Of a stretch of DNA of 24,215 nucleotides, positions 9,940-16,510 are shown one piece after another. Each line of letters begins with the position of its first letter. Within the stretch, counting starts at the first letter, position 1. Under the pieces are notes generated by a model. It was not told the origin of the DNA. It ran no database searches and saw only the letters and a list, made by a program, of their open reading frames with translations. A program made the position numbers and the translations under genes. Source of the DNA: a virus. The DNA lies in the IMG/VR virus record IMGVR_UViG_3300009496_000073, positions 1-24,215 of that record, one strand, 5' to 3'.

Positions 9940-12900
9940 TTAAATGTTGTCTGCGATTGTTTGATTTTGTCTTACAAGTTGTGCTAACAATGAATTTTGT
10001 TTGTTTAATGCAGATAAAATATCAGCGGAATTGTCACTAGTTGCTATTTGTTGACTGCTTCCACCTGCTGTAGGTTGTTGTATTACATTACCAGCATCGT
10101 CAAATTTAACTGGATTACCTTCTGCATCTTTAAATGAACCTGCTCCGGCTTTTTGTATTTGCGGTGCATATTTTTTAAGTGCTTCACGCTCTGCTACTAA
10201 TGTTGCTCTCTGTTTAGATGAACCTCCAGCAATAAGTTCTTCTTCTCTGGCTTTTCTTTCGCCTTGGAAATTTTTATATAGTTCTGGATCTTTTGCCAAC
10301 ATATCACGTTGACTGTAGTTTGCAGTAAAATTATCTCCTAGTTTGCCTGCTTTTTTAATTATTGGACTTGTGCCTGTTGCTGGCCCGGTAACTGGTGCTT
10401 GTTCTTCGCCGGCGCCGCCAGTAAGTTTTCCTCCGATTAACCCCAATGCGGCCATCTTAAATAAATCAGTAAAACTAATTTGATCTAGTGCTTCGCCAAA
10501 TGTTATGAATGCATCTCTGATAACATTCATTTGGCTTGCAACAAAGTTGCCGTCTATCTTAGCAACTGCGTCTGTAAACTTATCAACAGTATCTCCCATA
10601 TTATCCATAACGTCTGCCATTTCAGTTATGTTAGGTGCTACTTTGCCTAATCTTATAAACTGGTCTATTGGATCATCTGAGAACAAGTTTGCAAAGCCTT
10701 TTGCGATTTGACTTATAACACTACCTGCTGTCATGGCTACTAGAGCGGCACCTACTGCCGTTAAGCCTGCCGCGGCACCTAGTAACTGTGTTCCTGATAA
10801 TGAGCCTAGTTCTTTAATAAACCCTGTAAAACTATTTCCTAGGCTTGCCATACCTGAAAAAATCAAATTAATTCCTTTGCCTACAAACATAGCGGCTTTA
10901 CCAATTGCAAGGAATATACCTGCTATTGCATTTCCTATACCCATTATAATTGATCCAATGCCCTGGAATACTGCTTGAATTGACTTACCAACACTTACTA
11001 TTACTGCACCTATTCCTTCAAAGACCTTTAAAACAACTGAGCCTACTGCTGTTACAATCGCCGCTATGCCTTTACCTACTGATTCTAATATAGCACCCAC
11101 GCCTTGCATTACATTTAATATAACTTTACCAAATGCTTCAATGGCCGGTGTAGCAATTCTTAATGCAGTAGCCATTACTAATAATGCCGCTGTTAATAAT
11201 CCTAGTCCTGCCCACACCATTGGGTTCATTGCCGCTTTACCTAAAACTTTAAGTCCTGTTCCTATTGCTTTCATCATTGCAATAAATCCGCCACCAAATG
11301 ATTTCATGCCACCTGCGGCTTTACCTGAAGCACCGGCTCCATCTAAGATTTTTTTCTGGGTAGAAGCACCTGGTCCGCCTCCACGGCCTCCCATAAAGCC
11401 ACCTAGTTTGTCTTTAAAACCTTTCATTGAGAAGCCTGTAAACTTCTTAGCCATTTCACCAAAGCCTGACATCATTTTGGCTATGCCTTTTCCTTGTAAT
11501 GCAGTATATATTTTTAAGGCCCCAATTGCTAATACTACTACACCTGTAAGTTGTCCTAATGCTTCTGCACCTGAATCTGCAACTCCTAAAAATTTAAGGA
11601 GTCCGCCACCTGCACTTGCTATGAATCCAAATAGTTTAGTAACTGGCGTTAATATAAATGCTAATACATCAATTACTGCACCTAATAGTTTAAATGCAAG
11701 TATAACTGGTGCTAATACAATACCTAAAACCTTCATTACAGAAAAGAAACCTTTTGCAAAGTTACTTACATTTTTTATCATTGTAGGTATATAATCTATA
11801 AAACTAGCAAGACCTTGCGACATTTTTTGTATGTAGTATGGTAACTTTTCACCTAATGACTTACCTAGGTCTTTAATGTCGTCGCCTGTTTCACCAAATA
11901 AGCCTGAGAGTGAAGAAACTATTATTTTTTGTGCTTTTTCTAATGCAGGACCTAAGTCTCCTATTGACCCTAAGCCTGATAAAAACGAATACCTAAATGC
12001 TTCGAACGTTCCCATAATTTTACTGATTATGTTGTTTAATGCATTTGTTCCTTTTTGAATATTGTCTGGATTTAATTTTAATTCATCTATTCTGGCCGCA
12101 CTTGCTGTAAAGGCCCTGACAGCATTTGCCATCTCTGTTGCACCTTCCACACCTGCTCTTTCCATTGCAAATATTCTTTCTTTTTCGCCTTGACTTAGAT
12201 TACCTAACTCTTGTGAAAAGTTCATTGCCATTTTTTGTGCACCTTCTTGAGTAAGTGTGCCATTCTTCATTGCATTAGAAAGTTGAACCGTTGTTTGTTG
12301 CAGTCTAGGTAATACCGCGGTCATGGCCACTAAACTATTACTAAAGCCTAACGCCCCACCGGCACTTGCTTCTACCATTGCCTGTGCAATACCTTTACCT
12401 TCTTCTCCTCCCATGCCTGCCATAATAGTGCCGAACTCTTTAAGTCCTGCTACCATTTGCGACTGTGTTGATTTATTAAATCTTAGTAAAGAACCTGATA
12501 AAATATTAGTATCAGTAACAAGACTGTTTGTAAAGGCTCTAAGTTCGTCTGTGCTTACGCCTAATGCCTGTGCAAACTTTTGCTGTGTTTTCATAGTTTG
12601 CTGTGTTTCTTTTGCTATCTGAGTCGATGATATTCCGTTTAAAATACCTAGTCTTGCTCTTGTATCTAATTCTTCTCCGTATCTTTCAGCACTTTCTTCT
12701 AACGACATGCCTAGGTTCATTCCTGATTTGTTTAGTTCATCGAATGCTACACTCATATCAGCAATACTATTAACTCCTAAAACAGCCGCCGCTCTACTAA
12801 AGTTTGTTAAGAATTGCGATGCATCTATACCTGCTGTGCTTAATTTTGCTAATGCATCTATACTGGAACCTTGTGCATCTCCAAATCCTACGCCTGAGCG

Positions 12901-13359
12901 GGTAAGTTCATTTAATGTCTCACCAGCATTAGTTACTGCATTAAAAAGGCCGATTGCTACGGCACTTGTAACTGATACAAGTCCAACTCCAAATCCTCTT
13001 AAATACTGATAACTCTTATCCCATGTTTTTTCGCCTTTAGCAATGGCTCTATTATAATCCTCTAATGCTTTAGGATCTTGCTCTAAGCCGCCTTCTTCAA
13101 TTTGTTTTCTTGTTTTTTCTAATAATGATAGGAGTTCCTTTGATGCTCCTTCTGATGCTTTATTACCTTTTTCAATATTTTTATTAGTATCTTTGATTTC
13201 TTCATTTATTTTTTGATTATTTTTAGAATCTTCTTTTTCTATTCCGGCTAATTTTTTTAACAAATCAACCATTTGTTGAGCACTGGAATCTAAGGCAAAT
13301 TCAGGTAATTCAACGTCATATGGAATTCCTTCGTTATTGGATAATGTAATTTTAGCCAT
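9940..13359 (-). CDS. Tail tape measure protein
   Basis: A 1139-residue protein expected to set tail length and line the tail tube. The N-terminal ~110 residues are charged and coiled-coil-like. Residues ~115-500 are Ala/Gly/Ser-rich helices. From ~540 to ~900 there are many hydrophobic segments (for example ILAPVILAFKLLGAVIDVLA and LGLLTAALLVMATALRIA) interrupted by Gly/Phe-rich loops. The C-terminal tail is a short coiled coil (ILSALNKQNSLLAQLVRQN). Alternating coiled coil and hydrophobic blocks in a very long protein are the hallmark of tape measures. The neighbour across the divergent gap is a gp26-like assembly gene. It would be the functional counterpart of T4 gp29, though I see no clear sequence identity. 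Its own late promoter is at 13441-13448. Confidence 0.88.
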   Translation of the reverse strand: MAKITLSNNEGIPYDVELPEFALDSSAQQMVDLLKKLAGIEKEDSKNNQKINEEIKDTNKNIEKGNKASEGASKELLSLLEKTRKQIEEGGLEQDPKALEDYNRAIAKGEKTWDKSYQYLRGFGVGLVSVTSAVAIGLFNAVTNAGETLNELTRSGVGFGDAQGSSIDALAKLSTAGIDASQFLTNFSRAAAVLGVNSIADMSVAFDELNKSGMNLGMSLEESAERYGEELDTRARLGILNGISSTQIAKETQQTMKTQQKFAQALGVSTDELRAFTNSLVTDTNILSGSLLRFNKSTQSQMVAGLKEFGTIMAGMGGEEGKGIAQAMVEASAGGALGFSNSLVAMTAVLPRLQQTTVQLSNAMKNGTLTQEGAQKMAMNFSQELGNLSQGEKERIFAMERAGVEGATEMANAVRAFTASAARIDELKLNPDNIQKGTNALNNIISKIMGTFEAFRYSFLSGLGSIGDLGPALEKAQKIIVSSLSGLFGETGDDIKDLGKSLGEKLPYYIQKMSQGLASFIDYIPTMIKNVSNFAKGFFSVMKVLGIVLAPVILAFKLLGAVIDVLAFILTPVTKLFGFIASAGGGLLKFLGVADSGAEALGQLTGVVVLAIGALKIYTALQGKGIAKMMSGFGEMAKKFTGFSMKGFKDKLGGFMGGRGGGPGASTQKKILDGAGASGKAAGGMKSFGGGFIAMMKAIGTGLKVLGKAAMNPMVWAGLGLLTAALLVMATALRIATPAIEAFGKVILNVMQGVGAILESVGKGIAAIVTAVGSVVLKVFEGIGAVIVSVGKSIQAVFQGIGSIIMGIGNAIAGIFLAIGKAAMFVGKGINLIFSGMASLGNSFTGFIKELGSLSGTQLLGAAAGLTAVGAALVAMTAGSVISQIAKGFANLFSDDPIDQFIRLGKVAPNITEMADVMDNMGDTVDKFTDAVAKIDGNFVASQMNVIRDAFITFGEALDQISFTDLFKMAALGLIGGKLTGGAGEEQAPVTGPATGTSPIIKKAGKLGDNFTANYSQRDMLAKDPELYKNFQGERKAREEELIAGGSSKQRATLVAEREALKKYAPQIQKAGAGSFKDAEGNPVKFDDAGNVIQQPTAGGSSQQIATSDNSADILSALNKQNSLLAQLVRQNQTIADNI

Positions 13360-13472: not shown

Positions 13473-14360
13473 ATGGCCCAACAACAAAACCCGTTGTCCT
13501 CTTTTTATAGAGCGCCAAAATTATATGCTAAACTACCAAGTTTAGGACAGTATTACTCAGCAGACGTTGTTGAAATGCCTGAAAATGGTGAACTTCCAGT
13601 GTTTGCTATGACATCCAAAGATGAACTTTTAATGAAAAACCCAGATGCATTACTTAATGGTGAAGCAGTTATACAGGTTATTAAGAGTTGCATCCCTAAC
13701 GTTAAAGATGCAAGTAAAATGCTAAGTGCAGACGTAGACACATTACTGGTAGCAATTCAAGGTGCTACATTTGGCGATGACTTAGAAGTTACAGGAACAT
13801 GTGATAAATGTTCTTCTGAAGCAAGAGGTATTGCAAGTGTTGAAATGGCACTAGAAACTATGCAGGTCCTAGAAGATGTTTACAATGTAGAGTTAATGGA
13901 TTTAAATATTTTAATTAAACCATTTAGTTATTCCAGCACAATTAAAGCGGGAATAACAAACTTTCAAAGCACTAGAAGTTTGCAAAATATCGGTGATATA
14001 GAAGATGACGAAGAAAGACTTAAATTGTTTAATGAAAACTTTTTAAAAGTTGCTGAACTAAACTTTGATCTTATCTTAGACAGCATAAACACTATTTCAG
14101 GTAAAAATGAAGACGGTGATTTTGTAGTATCTGATAAAAAACACATTGCAGAATTTTTAAACAATGTAGATAGTAGTGTCGGAAAAGCAATCGAAGAAAA
14201 GATTCAGGAAATTAATTCAATTGGTATTGCACAAGAAATGACGTTACAATGCCCTAATCCAGAATGTTTCGAAAATGAAGGTATAGATAACGAAGAAGAT
14301 TATTACACATTTACAACAAAGGTAAACTTTGATCCTGTAAATTTTTTCACGGCTTCCTAG
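13473..14360 (+). CDS. 26: gp26-like baseplate hub/tail assembly protein
   Basis: A 295-residue protein resembling the gp26 family of marine T4-like phages: FYRAPKLYAKLPSLGQYY (residues 11-28), LPVFAMTSKDELLMKNPDAL (41-60) and GEAVIQVIKSCIPNVKD (63-79). Cys110/Cys113 and Cys260/Cys265 form two Cys pairs that could make a zinc-ribbon-like site. In T4, gp26 helps assemble the baseplate hub. AGGAG lies 7 bases before the ATG. The last codons run through a T6C tract (14342-14348), just before the TAG; slippage to -1 there would replace the last three residues with 94 new ones. Its position next to the tape measure gene matches tail assembly chaperones of other phages. Confidence 0.88.
   Translation: MAQQQNPLSSFYRAPKLYAKLPSLGQYYSADVVEMPENGELPVFAMTSKDELLMKNPDALLNGEAVIQVIKSCIPNVKDASKMLSADVDTLLVAIQGATFGDDLEVTGTCDKCSSEARGIASVEMALETMQVLEDVYNVELMDLNILIKPFSYSSTIKAGITNFQSTRSLQNIGDIEDDEERLKLFNENFLKVAELNFDLILDSINTISGKNEDGDFVVSDKKHIAEFLNNVDSSVGKAIEEKIQEINSIGIAQEMTLQCPNPECFENEGIDNEEDYYTFTTKVNFDPVNFFTAS
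14342..14348 (+). promoter_or_regulatory. Candidate programmed -1 frameshift site T TTT TTC
   Basis: In the gp26-like frame the codons are AAT TTT TTC ACG GCT TCC TAG, giving the heptamer T-TTT-TTC of X-XXY-YYZ form. Both tRNAs can re-pair after a one-base backward slip. The -1 frame is then open for 94 codons to 14632. A 6-bp inverted repeat (AGCCTG / CAGGCT, 14370-14390) lies 22 bases downstream as a possible but rather distant stimulator. The downstream ORF has no convincing start of its own. Confidence 0.65.
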
Positions 14361-14632
14361 CACAGGCCGAGCCTGAGGAAATATCAGGCTACCTTAGGAG
14401 GCTAAAAGATGAATCCAAGGCCCTTGAAGAATCTATTGCAGAACTAGTAGTGTTTTCTGAAGGGTCAGTATCCTGGACTGAAGCATGGAACATGGGATTC
14501 TCTGATCGACGTCTAATAATAGAAACAATCAACAAGTATAATAAAATGAGATCAGGTGATAAAGGTGCCGGCGATTTTAGTGGTAACACAGTCGAGGGGG
14601 ATTACGGTTTTGATCCTGTGAACCTTGAATAA
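14348..14632 (+). CDS. -1 frame extension of the gp26-like gene (gp51-position ORF)
   Basis: Read in the -1 frame from the slippery run, 94 codons are open to the TAA at 14630-14632, giving a fusion of 292 + 94 = 386 residues. The segment looks like real protein: an acidic helix (EEISGYLRRLKDESKALEES) followed by SWTEAWNMGFSDRRLIIETI and a Gly/Asp-rich tail. The first standalone start would be GTG at 14450, with no Shine-Dalgarno sequence, and it would discard the upstream helix. An AGGAGG-ATG at 14395-14411 is in another frame and opens only 12 codons. Whether the part corresponds to T4 gp51 (baseplate hub assembly) or to the T part of lambda G/GT is inference. Confidence 0.65.
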   Translation, partial: HGFLAQAEPEEISGYLRRLKDESKALEESIAELVVFSEGSVSWTEAWNMGFSDRRLIIETINKYNKMRSGDKGAGDFSGNTVEGDYGFDPVNLE

Positions 14633-15578
14633 CATAACGTCAATCGATTGTTCTAATTTTTATAATGGTATCTTTATTAGTCCTAATGGAACGGTAAAAC
14701 CCTGTTGTCGTTATGCAGAACCAACAGATCTCAAATGGAATAGTGATCCAGATGCTATTTTAAACAGCGATTTATACAAAGATCTACGCAAAAAAGCCAA
14801 ACAAGGCACCAAAATTGCAGGTTGTGATAAGTGTTATGCTGAAGATAAGGCCGGTTTTTTGAGTCTAAGACGCCGATTTAATAAGAAGTTTGAAAGGCCA
14901 AAGCACAGTTTAGAGTATTTAGAATTAGCATTTAATAACATTTGTAACCTAACTTGCATAGGTTGTGAACCAAAATATTCTAATCTATGGGGTAAAAAAT
15001 TAGGTTATATAAGTCCCATAGTAAGTCACAGTTTTAACCTAGAACATAACTACAAAGACCTATCTTATGTGTCGTTTTTCGGCGGTGAACCATTTGCTAC
15101 ATCTAATCATCAGCAGTTTGTAAACTTTCTTATAAAAGAAGATATAGCAAAGAACATAACACTAGAATACACAACCAATTGCACACTAACACCTAACCCG
15201 GAATGGTTAGAAAGTATTAAGCAGTTTAAAGATGTTATTGTTATCTGTAGCATAGACGGTGTGGATGAGGTGAATAGTGAGATCCGACGCGGTTCGAAAT
15301 GGAGTAAAGTAACCCGAACGTTTGATTTTTTTAAATCCTCAGATGTTAAACTTTGGGTTAATACAGTAGTAATGAATAAGAATGTATTTCACCTAGAAGA
15401 ACTAAGCAAATGGATTGCCGACAATAATGTTGATAAATGGACATGTAATGTATTAACGTGGCCCAGTGATCTATCAATCACAACTCTACCTAACATAGAT
15501 AAGCAACAACTCTATACTATTATAGAACAATGCAATATAACTGATAAACAGTTTATACTAGATCAATTACAAAAGTAA
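14625..15578 (+). CDS. Radical SAM protein with N-terminal twitch/SPASM-like domain
   Basis: A 317-residue protein. The radical SAM iron-sulfur motif CxxxCxxC is present as C107-NLT-C111-IG-C114, followed by GGEP (153-156, SAM contact region). An N-terminal segment ISPNGTVKPCCR (19-29) and GCDKCYAED (66-74) supply five further Cys (9, 27, 28, 67, 70). This fits an auxiliary cluster of the N-terminal twitch type found in phage and polysaccharide-locus radical SAM proteins. The substrate is unknown; peptide, carbohydrate or nucleotide modification are all possible. The start is TTG, overlapping the previous ORF by 8 bases, with no strong ribosome binding site, so translation is probably coupled. 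It is co-directional with the tail assembly gene and is followed by a weak terminator. It appears short at the C-terminus compared with what I recall of this family. Confidence 0.85.
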   Translation: MNNITSIDCSNFYNGIFISPNGTVKPCCRYAEPTDLKWNSDPDAILNSDLYKDLRKKAKQGTKIAGCDKCYAEDKAGFLSLRRRFNKKFERPKHSLEYLELAFNNICNLTCIGCEPKYSNLWGKKLGYISPIVSHSFNLEHNYKDLSYVSFFGGEPFATSNHQQFVNFLIKEDIAKNITLEYTTNCTLTPNPEWLESIKQFKDVIVICSIDGVDEVNSEIRRGSKWSKVTRTFDFFKSSDVKLWVNTVVMNKNVFHLEELSKWIADNNVDKWTCNVLTWPSDLSITTLPNIDKQQLYTIIEQCNITDKQFILDQLQK

Positions 15579-16081: not shown

Positions 16082-16510
16082 TTATATCTTCTTGAAGTGT
16101 TCTTTAAGAATTTTTGAACCACCTACTCTAACATTGATGATTCCATTATAATAATCGTCTGTTAGTAACACTTTTCTTTCGAATTGCTCTCTTGCTTCTA
16201 TATAACTTGCTATGCCTCTAGTAGGACAAAAATGTAAAATTTCTCTTGTAAAGTTGTCTTCGCCAAGTTCTTCTACATCTGCTTGTAAGTGGTCAGAACT
16301 GCCCCAATAAGTTTTCCAGTCGCTCTCTTTGTATCCACGACGTTTGTTCTTTTTGCCTTTTAAGGGAGGCTTGGTTGTTTTGAATTTTGCTAATTTCTTA
16401 CCGACATACTTCATGCCGTTAGTTTTATTTGTGATTAGATACACAAATGCTTCGCAGTCTTCCGGTAATGTGTCTACTGTTTTATTATTAAATTTCCATG
16501 GACTAGGCAT
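16082..16510 (-). CDS. Small GIY-YIG-type endonuclease
   Basis: A 142-residue protein with the GIY-YIG core. VYLI (Tyr24) is followed 11 residues later by KYVGK (Tyr35-Val-Gly37). KRRGY...YWGSS (57-72) can supply the catalytic Arg, a Glu lies in YIEAREQFER (Glu105/Glu108), and an Asn in YYNGIINV (Asn122). There is no separate DNA-binding module, so it is shorter than T4 Seg homing endonucleases. The ATG overlaps the gp46 stop by 8 bases, making it the last gene of the gp55-gp47-gp46 operon. It could be a homing endonuclease, or a recombination/DNA-degradation nuclease working with gp46/47. The close coupling to gp46 suggests stable integration into that operon. Confidence 0.8.
   Translation of the reverse strand: MPSPWKFNNKTVDTLPEDCEAFVYLITNKTNGMKYVGKKLAKFKTTKPPLKGKKNKRRGYKESDWKTYWGSSDHLQADVEELGEDNFTREILHFCPTRGIASYIEAREQFERKVLLTDDYYNGIINVRVGGSKILKEHFKKI

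Follow-up and report, generated by a model that had tools for sequence, protein, structure and literature searches.

The window analysed here, a 24,215-nucleotide stretch of viral DNA (IMG/VR record IMGVR_UViG_3300009496_000073, positions 1 to 24,215), contains a gene for a gp26-like protein whose 3' end is overlapped by an open -1 reading frame. This raises the question of whether the gene yields one protein or two. We propose, on the strength of the sequence comparisons described below, that it very probably makes two tail assembly chaperones, TAC-N and TAC-NC, by -1 programmed frameshifting at a T_TTT_TTC heptamer. The proposal is based on the conserved in-phase T6 run, the open and homologous extension that follows it, covariation in a downstream RNA stem, the occurrence of one rather than two PF12322 genes per genome, and the match of the cyanophage extension to T4 gp51.

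The gene, its slip site and its neighbours

The features concerned are as follows.

13473..14360, + strand: gp26-like short form (TAC-N), 295 residues, ending at the TAG stop codon 14358-14360; assigned from PF12322 and phrog_150
14342..14348, + strand: candidate slippery heptamer T_TTT_TTC, with TTT in the P site and TTC in the A site, both read by tRNA-Phe; assigned from the in-frame codons and their conservation
14348..14632, + strand: -1 frame extension (TAC-C), 94 residues after the slip, giving a TAC-NC of about 387 residues; assigned from the open -1 frame, the alignment of relatives and a four-helix model
14351..14403, + strand: predicted RNA stem 3' of the slip site, with an outer 9-bp helix (14351-14359 with 14395-14403) and an inner hairpin (14370-14390); assigned from folding
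9940..13359, - strand: divergent tape-measure-like gene, presumed to encode the client of the chaperones; assigned from phrog_58 (tail length tape measure, E 5.3e-8)

The gp26-like protein matches PF12322 (E 1.1e-14, 55.1 bits against a curated cut-off of 24.5) and phrog_150, annotated as baseplate hub (E 4.9e-18). Its last codons, at 14340-14360, read AAT TTT TTC ACG GCT TCC TAG, which places the heptamer in the correct phase with its A-site codon four codons ahead of the stop, as an earlier note on this DNA had described. Already open ahead of the heptamer, the -1 frame runs without a stop to 14632 and encodes 94 residues after the two phenylalanines. Its earliest ATG, GTG or TTG is GTG 14450, again in agreement with that note, and the tape-measure-like ORF does face the gp26-like gene, adjoining and divergent from it. 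Neither PHROG nor Pfam has a family that the window's extension matches above threshold. On its other side, a radical SAM/SPASM protein gene (14625-15578; PF04055 E 2.5e-13, PF13186) starts at the end of the extension. Further downstream, a SegE-type GIY-YIG endonuclease (16085-16510; PF19835 E 3.6e-33) overlaps the end of a gp46-like SbcC gene by a few bases.

Conservation of the heptamer and the -1 phase

The earlier note had suggested aligning this locus from related phages. Using single proteins as queries, we gathered 209 homologous loci, representing 190 distinct genes, from isolate phages and IMG/VR; a second scan with the relative L007 as query matched nothing but L007 itself. An in-frame T6 run is present at the end of the gene in 208 of the 209 loci (T6C in 207, T7 in one), which come from cyanophages as well as several lineages of jumbo phages; with one exception, these 208 also have a -1 frame that continues without a stop through a homologous extension. 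The T7 site belongs to Stenotrophomonas phage RAS14 (L023 2280-2525). At the other Phe-Phe pairs of the same 190 genes, T_TTT_TTC was never used (0 of 102). The spacing between heptamer and stop differs among relatives (3, 5, 6, 8 or 13 codons), and despite this the extension begins at FF throughout, usually in the form FFRxxLL.

When the window is compared with its relatives L006 and L007, respectively 25 of 40 and 28 of 51 substitutions in the extension affect the third base of a -1 codon. Identity to these two is 87-100% in the 60 nt around the heptamer and 53-80% in the 60 nt immediately upstream. Taken together, these observations on the family indicate that the -1 frame is coding and that selection acts on the T-run at the nucleotide level. 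A variable phase and an unconserved T-run, the pattern that the earlier note held would count against frameshifting, is limited to two loci. In cyanophage S-SCSM1 (L025 3175-3374) T6C is kept, but a stop closes the -1 frame after six codons, and a gp51-like ORF lies in the other frame with its own ATG; this locus represents loss of the frameshift, slippage of a different kind or an error in the sequencing. Pseudomonas phage Cygsa01 (L027 2780-2982) has no slippery heptamer, and its gp51-like ORF begins at a TAATG overlapping the stop, possibly a third way to make the C-terminal domain.

RNA structure 3' of the heptamer

A stimulatory structure is best supported in the group of relatives that includes L008 and L009. 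The 100 nt following the heptamer have a mean folding z-score of -3.5 in this group, and 78% of sequences score below -2; the corresponding values for control segments taken upstream are 0.1 and 0%. What the sequences share is a stem of 10 bp starting 6 nt past the heptamer, for example GGCTTTTGAC with GTCAAAAGCC. It is paired in 85% of cells of the alignment and includes 67 double changes; its covariation score of 0.256, against 0.119 for shuffles, was reached by none of 500 shuffles and is far higher than that of every slid version. Comparable stems are predicted in phages Atu_ph07 (z -6.6) and Phosso (z -2.9), with a weaker one in PA5oct (z -1.9).

In the window itself, the 100-nt fold is moderately stable (-29.1 kcal/mol, z -1.8). 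The predicted stem starts 2 nt after the heptamer, nearer than usual, and shows one compensatory change, G-C to A-U, in L006. In the CBB-like and cyanophage groups, structure does not exceed that of the control segments, so the stem is not universal.

Alternative explanations

The downstream frame could instead be a small gene in its own right, its translation coupled to that of the gp26-like gene through an overlapping start (ATGA or TAATG), with no frameshift taking place. Several relatives are arranged in this way: in Phosso and Atu_ph07 an ATG in the -1 phase overlaps the stop as ATGA, while 121Q, XbC2, BF and Kaldavass have TAATG at the junction in the same phase, and most records among these six list a separate downstream gene. 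The TAATG of Cygsa01, which stands without a slippery site, is also in keeping with such coupling. The absence of a start codon that the earlier note expected of the downstream ORF thus holds for part of the family: the window, L006, L010, PA5oct and RaK2 lack ATG, GTG and TTG over the initial 25 codons of the -1 frame, but this absence is not general because many relatives carry one of these codons near the start of the frame, annotated as a separate gene. The five start-less loci nevertheless argue against a separate gene, and coupling explains neither the invariant T_TTT_TTC nor why homology begins exactly at FF, upstream of any start. We consider it improbable that coupling replaces frameshifting at this locus. 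A coupled gene may be an additional product in the ATGA and TAATG relatives, though it would leave their heptamer unexplained. The extensions of 121Q and CBB belong to phrog_18291, a family without a function label, and the small hypothetical genes in records of RaK2-like phages (phrog_18291; L004 4828-5037, L014 2373-2549 and equivalents) constitute the C-terminal domain of the proposed frameshifted chaperone, their annotation as separate genes being probably wrong.

Runs of six T are also possible sites of polymerase slippage, and a fusion mRNA could in principle arise by transcriptional rather than ribosomal slippage on the T6 run. However, the run never exceeds T6C or T7 in the 208 loci. 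The loci moreover keep the ribosomal X_XXY_YYZ phase and, in one group, a covarying stem, neither of which polymerase slippage needs, making this explanation very unlikely. Finally, the T6C run is by itself unremarkable because the AT-rich window has 8 copies on its + strand, but its position, phase and conservation are remarkable. Isolate genomes and about 190 loci from metagenomes share this phase and extension. Their agreement refutes an accidental overlap, whether from a frame open by chance or from an error in sequencing beside an unrelated gene, and we assign that explanation a negligible probability.

Protein models and the putative chaperone role

An AlphaFold model of the short form has a pLDDT of 84.6. 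The extension is modelled as four helices and is helical from its second residue, which would fit translation from the slip site rather than from GTG 14450. Foldseek searches of the PDB returned no match at E < 0.001 for the gp26-like model and none for the extension model, and the family sequence profile likewise found nothing in the PDB. Against a viral structure library, the gp26-like model matched baseplate hub and hub-assembly proteins of T4-like phages (E 1e-24). Alignment of the short-form model to HK97 gp13 (2ob9) with VIA-align gave a Z of 5.7 over 102 of 107 target residues at an rmsd of 5.2, a score tied with unrelated helical chains; the alignment is compatible with a chaperone fold but not diagnostic of one. 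Proteasome and other chains matched in the fold searches were treated as noise.

A divergent gene, structural or tape-measure-like, faces the chaperone gene in most relatives. By analogy, a short and long pair encoded beside a tape-measure gene is characteristic of G/GT-type tail assembly chaperones. The lambda G/GT system likewise involves an infrequent -1 slip close to the 3' end of the short gene, an extra domain on the long form and an adjoining tape-measure gene, a likeness of genetic arrangement. It differs in that lambda slips on GGGAAAG and has its chaperone upstream of the tape measure in one operon, whereas the window gene is divergent. In the published table of CBB virion mass spectrometry, the divergent neighbour CBB_251 has 29 peptides, and CBB_249 and CBB_250 are not listed (PMC5259590). 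Similarly, the PA5oct record flags the neighbours as detected by mass spectrometry and not the gp26-like gene.

Proposed mechanism

That slippage occurs, and in what proportion of ribosomes, is inferred here, as is the action of the products on the tape measure. Most ribosomes would stop at TAG 14358, producing the 295-residue TAC-N. A fraction would slip back one base on T_TTT_TTC, since TTT TTT offers a new pairing to the tRNA-Phe molecules that were decoding TTT and TTC; the downstream RNA structure probably aids this step. The slipped ribosomes would read the -1 frame to 14632, producing a TAC-NC of about 387 residues that carries an extra helical domain. If lambda G/GT is a guide, both forms would coat the tape-measure protein encoded by the divergent gene and hand it over. 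The frameshift postulated in the earlier note is thus well supported by the in-frame T6 run and the homologous -1 extension.

Relationship to T4 gp26 and gp51

T4 gp26 and gp51 both match PF12322, gp51 over residues 1-201 with a C-terminal extension beyond. A single PF12322 gene is present in 12 of 13 closed jumbo-phage genomes of the frameshift type; the exception, SCTP-2, has no PF12322 score, though a homologue was found by tblastn. Among the other T4-like phages examined, S-RIM8, Bakedbeans and Cygsa01 also have one such gene, and T4, phiP4-3 and KARL-1 each have two. The five T4-type gp26 genes that were read all lack a T6 run towards the end of the gene. The frameshift extension of the cyanophages aligns to the C-terminus of T4 gp51 (hhalign probability 96.8%, P 3e-10). 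The jumbo-phage extension aligns weakly to the same region (hhalign probability 25%), and that part of the gp51 homology is therefore suggestive.

The 2022 study by Vladimirov and colleagues is reported to have recognised T4 gp26 and gp51 as tail assembly chaperones, and its abstract reportedly names genes 26 and 51 and describes frameshifting as conserved in several T4-like groups. According to a passage of PMC10885494, which cites Vladimirov, Gautam and Davidson 2022 on the point, certain T4-like phages have one short and one longer fused gene in place of frameshifting, and a passage of PMC12846349 credits Vladimirov et al. 2022 with poly-T -1 signals in the TAC-N genes of T4-like phages. 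The suggestion of the earlier note that gp26/gp51-type proteins are made as short and frameshifted forms is therefore upheld as to mechanism but is not new, the principle being already credited to that study in these passages. The PF12322 family, the short and long products and the poly-T -1 signal are, so far as the passages describe them, common to the window gene and the frameshifted homologues of T4-like phages; T4 differs in having two separate genes, 26 and 51, where the window obtains both products from one. PMC12846349 also describes a locus of the Vandenendeviridae and Andersonviridae (phage Adele) in which a poly-T -1 signal ends TAC-N, the -1 frame is open in all alleles and the downstream piece is misannotated as hypothetical. 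That locus differs in its GTTTTT motif, its phage group and the position of the chaperone gene upstream of the tape measure. For RaK2-like jumbo phages, no earlier mention was found in the literature covered, which included Vladimirov et al. 2022 as quoted in those passages.

These comparisons lead us to a broader reading whose chances of being right or wrong we judge to be about equal. T_TTT_TTC would be near-invariant and its extensions phase-locked in RaK2-like jumbo phages, in uncultivated relatives and in cyanophages, one group having a covarying stimulatory stem. It would have been lost in the T4 lineage as the gene became the paralogues 26 (short) and 51 (long), so that frameshifting and duplication would substitute for one another. 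The stem and the reach into jumbo phages are perhaps undescribed.

Although the principle is not new, the device having been published for T4-like phages according to the passages cited above, the finding supplies a function for a gene that many records of jumbo phages annotate as baseplate hub or as hypothetical. The small hypothetical gene that follows it should be annotated together with the gp26-like gene as one frameshifted chaperone. The family also offers a natural comparison of two routes to the same protein pair, one frameshifted gene as against the two genes of T4.
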